NCBI RefSeq assembly: GCF_000177235.2
Contig: NC_014829.1
Coordinates: forward strand, 1-64,000
Length of the DNA: 64,000 nucleotides
Direction: 5' to 3'
Source of the DNA: Evansella cellulosilytica DSM 2522
Lineage (GTDB): Bacteria; Bacillota; Bacilli; Bacillales; Salisediminibacteriaceae
The notes beneath the pieces were generated by a model. It saw only the letters and a list, made by a program, of their open reading frames with translations, was not told the origin of the DNA and made no database searches. Below are positions 3,451 to 44,875 of this stretch, piece by piece (the stretch's first letter is position 1; each line of letters opens with the position of its first letter). Both the position numbers and the translations under genes were made by a program.

Positions 3451-4572
3451 TTGTATATAAAGCAAATAACGATTAGAGATTATCGAAACTATGACCACTT
3501 AACGCTCCCATTTAATAATAAAATTAATGTGATCATTGGAGAAAATGCACAAGGAAAAACAAATTTAATGGAATCCATATACGTTCTTGCAATGGCTAAA
3601 TCACATCGTACGACAAAGGATAAAGAGCTCATTAGATGGGATCAACCTTTTGCTAAAGTCGAAGGTCAGATAAATAATAAAAATGGTCCTTTACAGATGG
3701 AAGTGATATTTTCAACTAAAGGTAAAAAAGTAAAGATCAACCATTTGGAGAAAAAAAGACTAAGTGAATATATTGGTTCGTGTAACATTGTTATGTTTGC
3801 GCCTGAAGATCTATCACTAGTAAAAGGTAGTCCACAAATTCGACGACGCTTTTTAGATATGGAAATGGGACAAATACACCCTGTTTATTTATATTATTTA
3901 TCGCAATATCATAAACAGCTCAAACAAAGAAACCAATGGCTTAAAGATGTATTACAAAAAAAACAAAAGCCTGACGCAACGATGTTGGACGTCATGACAG
4001 ACCAGCTGATTATTTCTGCTGGTCATGTAATTGAAAAAAGGTATGATTTTATAAAAAAATTACAAAAATGGGCAGCACCTATACATCATGATATAAGTCG
4101 TGGTCTAGAAAGCCTAGAGATTAACTATGTTCCCTCAATTAACGTATCAGAAGACATGGACTTGTCGACACTGTTAACAGTACTAAAAGAGGAGTTCGAT
4201 AGGTTAAAGGATAATGAATTACGACGTGGTATCACTTTAATTGGACCTCACCGTGATGATTTGCAGTTTTTAGTAAACGGAAGAGATATTCAAACATTTG
4301 GTTCACAAGGTCAGCAGCGAACAACAGCACTTTCTGTTAAATTAGCAGAGCTTGAACTAATCCATGAAAAAGTAGGAGAATATCCGATCTTACTATTGGA
4401 TGATGTACTTTCAGAGCTAGATGATCACCGGCAGTCCCATTTACTTAATACAATTCAAGGTAAAGTACAAACATTTGTAACCACGACTAGTGTAGATGGA
4501 ATTGAACATGCTACACTCCGTAATGCTGACATGTTCTATGTACAAGAAGGAAAGATTGAAGTAAAAAAATGA
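3451..4572 (+). CDS. recF: DNA replication and repair protein RecF
   Basis: 373 aa, SMC-like ATPase that helps load RecA at gaps. Walker A is GENAQGKT (30-37); the ABC-type signature region reads FGSQGQQRT, and Walker B is [12 protein letters not shown] near the C-terminus. The start is TTG at 3451 with GAGAAGGA upstream inside the end of rlbA. It is followed immediately by remB, whose ribosome site overlaps the recF stop codon. Confidence 0.98.
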
Positions 4573-18151: not shown

Positions 18152-18267
18152 TCCAGTGACGATAGCGGAGAGGTCACACCCGTTCCCATGCCGAACACGG
18201 TAGTTAAGCTCTCCAGCGCCGATGATAGTTGGGGGTTTCCCCCTGTGAAAGTAGGACGTTGCTGGGC
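18152..18267 (+). rRNA. 5S ribosomal RNA, operon 1
   Basis: 116 nt, the B. subtilis length. Contains GGTCACACCCGTTCCCATGC and CCGAACACGG, with ends pairing approximately (TCCAGTGACG with CGTTGCTGGGC). It lies about 70 bp after 23S. Confidence 0.95.
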
Positions 18268-18419: not shown

Positions 18420-19600
18420 GGAAATAGAATAAAGTGTATCATACGAGGCCAATGATACGCGAGAAGGTAGTGGGAACGAGATAAAGTGTATCATACGAGA
18501 CCAATGACACGCGAGAAAGAAGTGGGAATGAAATAAAGTGTGTCATACGAAGGCAATGACGCATATAAAAGTGGGAGGAACGGAATAAGGTGTATCATAC
18601 GAGGCCAATGACACGCGAGAAAGTAGTAGGAACGAGATAAAGTGTGTCATAGAAGTGCAATGACACGTGAGAATTTAGGTGGAAACGGATAAAGTGTATC
18701 ATACGAAGGCAATGACACATATAAAAGTGGGAGGAACGGAACAAAGTGTATCATACGAGGCCAATGACACGCGAGAAAGTAGTGAGAATGAAATAAAGTG
18801 TGTCATACGAGAGTAATGAAACATGAAATCTTAAGTAAAATAAAATAAGGTGTATCATAATCAAGCAATGCTACCCCAAAACCAACCCCGCACTCAACGA
18901 AGGTCATCATAATCAAGCAATGCTACCCCAAAACCAACCCCGCACTCAACGAAGGTAATCATAATCAAGCAATGCTACCCCAAAACCAACCCCGCACTCA
19001 ACGAAGGTAATCATAGTAAGCCAATGCTACCCCAAAACCAACCCCGCACTCAACGAAGGTAATCATAGTAAGCCAATGCTACCCCAAAAACCAAACCGCA
19101 CTCAACGAAGGTAATCATAGTAAGCCAATGCTACCCCAAAAACCAAACCGCACTCAACGAAGGTAATCATAGTAAGCCAATGCTACCCCAAAAACAAAAA
19201 CTCACCTAACGAAGGTAATCATAGGCGGCCAATGCTGCCCCAAAAGCCAACTCACACTCAACGAAGGTAATCATAGTAAGCCAATGCTACCCCAAAAACC
19301 AAACCGCACCCAACAAAGGTAATCATAAGCAAGCAATACTACCCCAAAACTAAACCACCACTCAACGAAGGTAATCATAGTAAGCCAATGCCACCCCAAA
19401 ACCAAACCCGCACTCAACAAAGGTCACCAAAAGCAAGCAATGCTGCCCCAAAACCAAACCAGCACTCAACGAAGGTCATCATACCCAAGCATGCCGCCCC
19501 CAAAACCAATCCTCACTCAACGAAGGTCAACATAGGCAATCAAAACAGCCCGACCCCCGAACCCCCGAACCCCCGAACCCTCACCTAACGAAGGCCAACT
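18420..19600. repeat. Composite tandem array, exact 52-bp period (array 1), types A and B
   Basis: The core TCATA starts at 18439 and recurs every 52 bp up to 19479 (21 consecutive positions, one degenerate at 19427). A further unit follows after 51 bp, then decay. Cores 1-8 (type A) share GTGTATCATACGAGGCCAAT then GACACGCGAG and a purine-rich remainder. Core 9 is a hybrid. Later units (type B) share GGTAATCATAGTAAGCCAAT then GCTACCCCAAAACC and CACTCAACGAA. The first 21 positions align between A and B; the rest does not. There are no unique spacers and no frame maintained over units (52 is not a multiple of 3). A matching array follows rRNA operon 2. Confidence 0.95.
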
Positions 19601-43702: not shown

Positions 43703-43818
43703 TCCAGTGACGATAGCGGAGAGGTCACACCCGTTCCCATGCCGAACACGGTAGTTAAGCTCTCCAGCGCCGATGATAGTTGGGGGTTTCCCCCTGTGAA
43801 AGTAGGACGTTGCTGGGC
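43703..43818 (+). rRNA. 5S ribosomal RNA, operon 2
   Basis: 116 nt, same sequence as the operon 1 copy. The spacer just before it differs by one base (CATAAATAG against CATAAAAAG). Confidence 0.95.
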
Positions 43819-43822
43819 AGAT

Positions 43823-43855
43823 AAAGTCATTCTCAATAGAGAGTGGCTTTTTTTA
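43823..43855 (+). terminator. rRNA operon 2 terminator
   Basis: Same AAAGTCATTCTC/GAGAGTGGCTTT hairpin and T run as operon 1. Near-identity between operons continues about 120 bp past it, into the start of the 52-bp array. Confidence 0.85.
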
Positions 43856-43970
43856 TTTGTTTACGATTTGGACTTTTGTGTACCGAAGGTAGGATTTTAT
43901 TTGATAAATGTGGTGAAATGAATGAGGAGTGTTCTTTTAGGGAGGAGCGCAATGATGCGGAAATAATGGT

Positions 43971-44875
43971 GGAAATAGAATAAAGTGTTTTATACAAGTG
44001 TAATGACGCAAGAAAAAGTGGGAGGAACGGAATAAGGTGTATCATACGAGACCAATGACACGCGAGAAGGTAGTGGGAACGAGATAAAGTGTGTCATAGA
44101 AGTGCAATGACACGTGAAAAAGTATGTGGAAACGAATAAAGTGTATCATACGAAGGCAATGACGCATAAGAAAGTGGGAGGAACGGAATAAGGTGTATCA
44201 TACGAGGCCAATGACACGCGAGAAGGTAGTGGGAACGAAATAAAGTGTGTCATAGAAGTGCAATGACACGTGAAAAAGTATGTGGAAACGAATAAAGTGT
44301 ATCATACGAAGGCAATGATGCATAAGAAAGTGGGAGGAACGAAATAAAGTGTGTCATATGAGGCAAATGACACGCGAGAAAGAAGTGGGAACGGAATAAA
44401 GTGTATCATACGAAGCCAATGACACGCGAGAAAGTAGTGGGAATGAAATAAAGTGTGTCATACGAGAGTAATGAAACATGAAATCTTAAGAAAAACAAAA
44501 TAAGGTGTATCATACGCAAGCAATGCTACCCTAAAAGCTAATCCTCACTCATCGAAGGTAATCATACGCAAGCAATGCTACCCCAAAAGCTAATCCTCAC
44601 TCAACGATGGTCGCCATACGCAAGCAATGCTACCCTAAAAGCTAATCCTCACTCATCGAAGGTAATCATAGGCAAGCAATGCTGCCCCAAAAACGAATCC
44701 CCACTCAACGAAGGTCATCATATGAAGCCAATGCTACCCCAAAACTAAAACCGCTCCCAACGAAGGTCACCATATGAAGCCAATGCTACCCCAAAAGCCA
44801 ACCCACACCCAACGAAGGTCATCATACGAAATCAATACTGTCCCAAAACCCAAACCTCAACCTTTAAACAAGCAC
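43971..44875. repeat. Composite tandem array, exact 52-bp period (array 2), types A and B
   Basis: The core (TCATA, or TTATA/CCATA in three units) starts at 43990 and recurs every 52 bp to 44822, 17 consecutive positions. The first ten units are type A, the eleventh is hybrid, the rest type B (CAATGCTACCCCAAAAGC...CTCACTCAACGAA). Within type A there is a three-unit super-repeat of 156 bp starting at 44018, 44174 and 44330. The A-to-B junction unit is nearly the same as in array 1. Nothing convincing is encoded. Confidence 0.95.

Follow-up and report, generated by a model that had tools for sequence, protein, structure and literature searches.

Tandem 52-bp arrays behind rRNA operons of Evansella cellulosilytica and their relation to NERD-domain genes in Bacilli

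Two 16S-23S-5S operons are present in the window, by which we mean the whole 64,000-nucleotide stretch analysed (positions 1 to 64,000 of contig NC_014829.1, Evansella cellulosilytica DSM 2522), and each is followed by a tandem array of 52-bp units. Do such arrays belong to the rrn operons, or is their main link to something else in the genome? An earlier note on this DNA, seeing arrays at two of two operons, had suggested a functional or mechanistic tie to rrn loci. The features that bear on the question, all on the + strand, are as follows:

43703..43818, +: 5S rRNA gene at the end of rrn operon 2, without tRNA genes after it (Rfam RF00001, 99.6 bits)
43828..43858, +: terminator-like inverted repeat and T-run 3' of the 5S gene (by eye)
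43886..43988, +: degenerate lead units ahead of the array (by eye, in 52-bp register; alike in seven rrn copies)
43979..44474, +: A-type 52-bp units, core consensus GTGTRTCATACGARGNCAATGACAC (TRF period 52, 9.5 copies, score 505)
44509..44859, +: B-type 52-bp units, core consensus GGTMATCATANNNNNNCAATGCTRCCC (TRF period 52, 6.8 copies, score 423)
18152..18267, +: 5S rRNA gene at the end of rrn operon 1 (Rfam RF00001)
18428..18859, +: A-type units of the sister array behind rrn operon 1 (TRF period 52)
18854..19543, +: B-type units of the sister array behind rrn operon 1 (TRF period 52, 13.3 copies, score 824)

The array behind rrn operon 2 and its family

The locus is built as the earlier note described it. 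A position-weight scan located 17 cores, the first at 43990 (then 44042 and so on) and the last at 44822, with all 16 steps equal to 52 bp; every A-type core keeps this step, and by eye a degenerate unit lies one step upstream of the first core, at about 43938. The A-then-B order of the units and the lead of about 130 bp between the T-run behind the 5S gene and the array are both visible in the sequence. A tRNA search of this 3' region (locus L032) found none. The sister array behind operon 1 is of the same kind, with 20 units (cores 18439 to 19427) and 19 of 19 spacings at 52 bp. The strict core TCATASNNNNNSAATGM matches 24 times in the window, counting both strands, whereas 50 mononucleotide shuffles of the window average 0.08 matches and never give more than 1. 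The same core matches 230 times in the 4,681,672-base genome, where the reversed control pattern has 0 matches. Within arrays, the unit is homogenised over its whole 52 bp (TRF match 58-93% in the period-52 rows, mostly >70%). Short 8-bp and 18-bp tandem repeats lie at the ends of two rrn-linked arrays (window 19549-19580 and contig 380564-380646).

Genome-wide, an array lies behind 7 of the 10 5S genes. All seven rrn operons without tRNA genes after the 5S have one, and a near-identical terminator-like stretch follows each of these 5S genes, whereas the other three 5S genes (at 106.5, 1111.5 and 3624.6 kb) lead directly into tRNA genes and have none. The family is also not confined to rrn loci: regions fetched from this genome hold 29 same-family arrays (including the home array described below, and some of 2-4 units only), and 22 of the 29 lie outside rrn loci, at intergenic sites of the convergent, divergent and tandem kinds. 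The earlier note had named many arrays without an rrn link, or rrn operons lacking arrays, as what would refute it, and both are found. The tie to rrn is real in this genome but secondary. The seven rrn arrays have about 150 bp of flank in common between 5S and array, and for this reason they probably go back to a single insertion that was distributed along with rrn by recombination.

Within the Evansella family, the tandem core pattern was found in 1 of 35 genomes, namely the window's own. An order-wide scan of 397 genomes gave 13 with at least 13 core matches (controls, 0-3 per strand); the cores are common to several genera, and the remainder of the unit differs. In this genome, where spacing was not preselected, 301 of 318 spacings are exactly 52 bp, and in other taxa the count is 580 of 627 chained spacings, in 103 loci which had been picked by a 52-bp tandem-core pattern. 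A profile scan found no chain in four loci (L062, L084, L085 and L142), three of which are Bacteroidetes, Desulfobacterales and Muribaculaceae records that look like chance matches. Oppositely oriented arrays lie near each other at L128, L133 and L139.

Arrays beside NERD genes

When 384 array-flanking ORFs were clustered, the cluster present in most genomes (eight) was a NERD protein of about 310 residues. In this genome, gene and array are arranged as follows:

contig 274882-275841: home NERD gene, with NERD (PF08378), Zn-ribbon and winged-helix-like parts
contig 275909-276363: home A-type array, starting 68 bp after the home NERD gene

Three array-flanking proteins match NERD (PF08378) at 57.3, 61.9 and 70.2 bits, against a gathering cut-off of 22.1, which makes the home partner gene a member of this group. 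The PD-(D/E)xK-type residues E58, Q89, D91 and K106, which we take to be catalytic by analogy with that fold family, are invariant in 41 aligned 52-type sequences, as are four cysteines, and the predicted catalytic residues and zinc cysteines are also invariant in 10 sequences spanning the period classes given below. In the predicted model of the protein (pLDDT 90.1, pTM 0.83), the NERD region is mixed alpha-beta, and the C-terminal unit, made up of three helices and two strands, looks like a winged helix. Among solved structures, the matches were all weak, to zinc ribbons and the like (best E 0.25).

The arrays and the genes are paired. Of 77 rows for 52-type NERD genes, 72 (and 32 of 35 protein clusters) have a 51-53-bp array within 1 kb downstream, each of the 72 starting <400 bp from the gene; the rows pool part of the strong matches from a search of 40 genomes with genes from other samples, and one gene is counted twice (L179/L303). 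The period is 52 bp in 61 of these arrays, 51 in seven and 53 in four. Five rows have no array within 1 kb, one of them at a contig end and one with an array at 0.9-1.0 kb. The control, ORFs from loci without 52-type NERD, gave an array in the 400 bp downstream for 3 of 118 ORFs, all three of 2.0-2.2 copies, and this control set takes in distant NERD genes themselves; an earlier control (41 of 225 ORFs) was discarded, having counted NERD arrays from the far side. A NERD alignment search of the 40 genomes gave 30 loci, 28 with a 51-53-bp array beside the gene and two without (L194, at a contig end, and L205), and among 20 further strong matches 19 have a downstream array, one of them 0.9 kb off. 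The strand of the array relative to its NERD gene is not constant (e.g., L111 and L060).

The 40 genomes had been chosen partly for presence or absence of the TCAT core, so we added a class-wide NERD search, which scored up to seven candidates in each genome and gave matches at E 1e-30 or below in 37 of 299 genomes. In this sample, which was not chosen for arrays, a tandem array flanks the NERD gene in 30 of 30 loci returned, though a few arrays have only 2-3 copies and two of the loci (L303 and L312) were already in earlier samples. The period follows the NERD subfamily: it is 51-53 bp in 15 of 15 arrays of the 52 class, 41-42 bp in 7 of 7 of the next subfamily (one of these 63), and 20-21 bp or multiples in 8 of 8 of the most distant group. 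In a second sample of distant NERD genes, 17 of 20 have arrays of 20/21-bp multiples at most 500 bp away, mostly upstream, and no such arrays were found in 300-bp flanks of 52-type NERD genes (0 of 124). No such array was found in the 3.4-kb locus around one short NERD gene at 4053.5 kb of the Evansella chromosome. Repeats of 21 bp lie on either side of a distant NERD gene in the same genome (contig 4282150-4284710, L209). DNA has a helical repeat of about 10.4-10.5 bp per turn, and the array periods lie near 2, 4, 5 and once 6 turns.

Our searches of open-licence PMC full texts found no description of NERD with tandem repeat arrays, and nothing relevant on '52-bp' repeats in Bacillus. The pairing appears to be new, and it is strongly supported; the mechanism proposed below is a hypothesis. 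The link to the NERD gene is stronger and more general than the link to rrn.

Could these be ordinary minisatellites, carried along with rrn by recombination, with the nearness to NERD incidental? Like bacterial minisatellites (VNTRs), the arrays are head-to-tail, intergenic and of constant period, their units vary as those of VNTRs do, and the flank common to the seven rrn arrays fits as well. We give this almost no credence, however, because NERD rows and control ORFs differ so widely in having an array, because periods are specific to the NERD subfamily, and because the core is kept across taxa while the spacers are not. Minisatellites also differ from these arrays in that here one period is found with unrelated sequences, and most of the families examined are tied to a nuclease gene.

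The tight linkage of the home array to its nuclease gene could also point to a defence or addiction module, in which binding sites in the array would restrain the NERD nuclease or mark self, and the nuclease would be set free when the array is lost or DNA enters. NERD-like stretches are found in defence proteins (partial PglW, MkoA and MAD6 matches), and PMC12458937 mentions an uncommon operon of defence type that includes a NERD nuclease. However, no defence-system model matched the NERD protein near its cut-off, and plasmid, phage and viral collections returned no relative of the 52-type protein with the one query put to each (a phage or plasmid origin was set aside on the same result). NERD matches, moreover, occur in several copies per genome, and different species have gene neighbours in common, at 12 NERD loci and at 8 NERD loci, which fits the expectation of stable inheritance. 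We therefore think a defence or addiction module improbable. Since NERD matches were found in 39 of the 40 genomes, with and without the TCAT core, presence of NERD fails as a marker of TCAT-core genomes. At L195 (genome G410), the NERD gene beside a TCAT-type array was hit as two distinct segments and could be broken, yet this genome retains 44 core matches.

Units and their copies

Only NERD proteins whose similarity exceeds about 0.6 have units in common (n=58), i.e., the unit goes with the lineage. Protein similarity and unit similarity are correlated (Spearman 0.18, with 0 of 1000 permutations as high and -0.008 for the reverse-strand control), and common descent alone can explain a correlation of this kind between sequences. 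This genome has three 52-type NERD genes (275, 4035 and 4603 kb) with three different units, and each unit also occurs in trans: that of the 275-kb gene recurs in the 29 A/B arrays, that of the 4035-kb gene at 494 kb, and that of the 4603-kb gene, with variation, at 3705, 3773, 4080, 4117, 4189 and 4366 kb. B-type units have the inner core in common with A-type units and different arms, and no separate NERD gene was found for them. Contig 3977323-3977923 and 913.7-914.1 kb (L054 and L302) hold a fourth family of 52-bp arrays, whose unit is different again and which has no neighbouring NERD gene.

Across unit consensuses CAT/ATG is invariant, and GGTAG is present in some units; the palindromes of REPIN/RAYT are tagged by GTAG/CGTC. 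An inverted repeat better than that of 95% of unit shuffles is found in 21 of 49 home units, although the arms are often unlike between the two sides of the dyad, and in B-type units the dyad is mismatched at two positions. Strong covariation across taxa is confined to one outer pair (-4/20, 0.89 vs 0.69, sd 0.021). The dyad, the invariant CAT/ATG and the one covarying outer pair suggest two half-sites. A tyrosine recombinase site (arms plus a 7-bp overlap, read from site shape only) was considered and dropped once the NERD link emerged.

Inverted repeats in an array directly downstream of a gene, here at a median distance of 78 bp, might instead act as RNA, with the transcribed array being cut to RNAs of about 52 nt that guide or hold NERD, as in CRISPR or omega-RNA arrays. 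A 9-bp stem closed by a 9-nt loop could form in A-type units, and the share of home units that beat their shuffles would fit. However, pairing is absent at the S positions flanking the loop (0.41 observed vs 0.50 in shuffles) and covariation is low for most arm pairs, which led us to reject the RNA hairpin. The array had no Rfam match at gathering score, its strand relative to the gene varies, and RNA gives no reason for a helical-turn period. CRISPR and other interspaced arrays resemble the NERD arrays in that a repeat array adjoins a nuclease-like gene, but CRISPR arrays have hypervariable spacers, whereas here there are no unique spacers between identical repeats: the whole 52-bp unit is homogenised, with a period set by the NERD subfamily. 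The cas genes were covered through recurrent-neighbour clustering only. A section of PMC10910872 deals with non-CRISPR interspaced arrays that go with nucleic-acid proteins, NERD arrays not being among those it describes, and a figure legend lists NERD among the domains of putative CRISPR auxiliary genes. A role as RNA is, in our estimate, very improbable.

A proposed origin, and the rrn 3' ends

We give roughly even weight to the reading that the array behind rrn operon 2 is a trans copy of a satellite whose home is at the NERD gene 274882-275841, and that the NERD protein nicks and spreads its own phased array, by analogy with REPIN/RAYT systems. Binding, cutting and copying by the protein are what we infer, as follows. 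The NERD protein would bind the interrupted palindrome of the unit via its C-terminal domain. Because the periods are near a whole number of helical turns, bound molecules would line up on one face of the DNA. The PD-(D/E)xK-type nuclease domain would then nick or cut in or near the array, driving unequal recombination or re-replication and thus expansion and homogenisation inside it. Now and then, units would be copied into other intergenic sites, where they may last if harmless (e.g., behind rrn terminators), and rrn recombination could move such copies from operon to operon. A stable nuclease gene would in this way maintain a population of its own repeats, as in REPIN/RAYT.

REPIN/RAYT is the nearest analogue in behaviour, not in protein. 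In both systems a chromosomal, apparently non-mobile nuclease gene (predicted to be one in the case of NERD) adjoins its own repeat class, there are several gene-repeat pairs per genome, and dispersed copies are intergenic. Among the NERD arrays, the repeat class is likewise specific to the adjoining gene, and dispersed intergenic copies were found, in one genome. PMC3116915 describes three RAYTs, each beside a different REPIN cluster, and tandem REP arrays too, and PMC8266576 describes co-evolution of TnpA-REP with its REP. The proteins differ, those of REPIN/RAYT being HUH/Y1 and the NERD protein here being of PD-(D/E)xK type, with cleavage predicted only; a Pfam search up to E 1 matched no Y1 transposase model in three home proteins, which are thus not HUH/Y1 (TnpA-REP) proteins. 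The repeats differ as well, since REPIN/RAYT repeats are mostly single REPs or doublets, whereas NERD repeats are long tandem arrays with a period near whole helical turns. The broader claim, to which we attach a little less than even weight, is that these arrays may be a satellite DNA of Bacilli, in which a NERD nuclease specific to each family would recognise a unit of a whole number of helical turns, produce and maintain the family, and spread its arrays through the genome, rrn 3' ends included, in a REPIN/RAYT-like manner which would have arisen independently in another nuclease superfamily.

NERD is a widespread bacterial domain of almost unstudied function (the authors of PMC9040797 state that to their knowledge its role in bacteria had never been studied before SmdA), and it gains a partner and a testable role. 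Unexplained regular intergenic repeats become pairs of gene and array that are open to assay. Such pairs are numerous, their units differ and their periods are fixed, which makes them a natural experiment on the joint change of a nuclease and its DNA site; they also bear on the origin of satellite DNA in compact genomes.

Repeats behind rrn operons are not limited to this genome. Sister species G002 has a 51-bp array unlike that of the window (unit AATGAGGACTGAAACTCATGAGAAATCAAATTTGAGTCCTCATTTTCCAAG, locus L272) about 230-840 bp downstream of five of its nine 5S genes; three of the other four run into tRNAs, and one has neither array nor tRNA. Set against the most similar of five home units from G002, this unit agrees at 25-27 of 51 positions, with shuffle maxima of 25-26, so a common identity is weakly supported and we do not adopt it. 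In sister species G004, four CGYGATAA motifs stand at 42/21/21-bp steps behind one 5S (L282). The motif occurs 25 times, mostly 21 bp apart, at the 21-type NERD locus of that species (L245) and 0 times in ten other loci, and direct BLAST of the G004 rrn locus against the NERD-21 locus gave no match; from the common motif and spacing, the rrn repeats would belong with the NERD-linked 21-bp array. Tandem repeats of about 101 bp also lie behind some rrn operons of sister species G003 and G004 (L262, L279 and L280).

Because different repeat families sit behind 5S genes in this genome, G002 and G004, the rrn 3' end may be a recurrent landing place, and it seems to be used again and again. In the 103 array loci of other genomes, by contrast with the rrn arrays here, a 5S is present in four and none is within 1.5 kb of the array. 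This is weak evidence, because about 37 of the 103 arrays (hand count) are <1.5 kb from a contig end of a draft assembly, so that a neighbouring rrn operon might fall outside the contig. Taken with the 22 of 29 arrays away from rrn, it led us to reject an rrn-specific function as the main link.

The arrays may nevertheless be useful to the host as an architectural or barrier element, in which a phased NERD filament insulates transcription, pauses replication forks at highly transcribed sites such as rrn or organises the nucleoid, and the nuclease resolves trapped DNA. Different units behind rrn in two to three species would fit this, as would periods near whole helical turns, an array between lspA and ileS both in this genome and in Sutcliffiella-type genomes, and the orientation of 24 of the 29 same-family arrays with replication (17 of the 22 non-rrn arrays), the terminus being assumed at half. 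Gene orientation may explain the last of these. Against it, the sites follow no common rule, the unit family is absent from the closest relatives, and 5S genes are missing beside arrays in other genomes, a point weakened by contig ends. We judge such a host function unlikely, while giving it serious consideration, and prefer a satellite made and copied by its NERD protein.

The lspA-ileS interval, with both names read from the proteins by inspection, holds an array at contig 2784050-2784414 (L052) in this genome and further arrays in Sutcliffiella-type genomes (L113, L116, L119, L120, L156 and L158), where the arms are different, i.e., the same site is occupied by a different unit.
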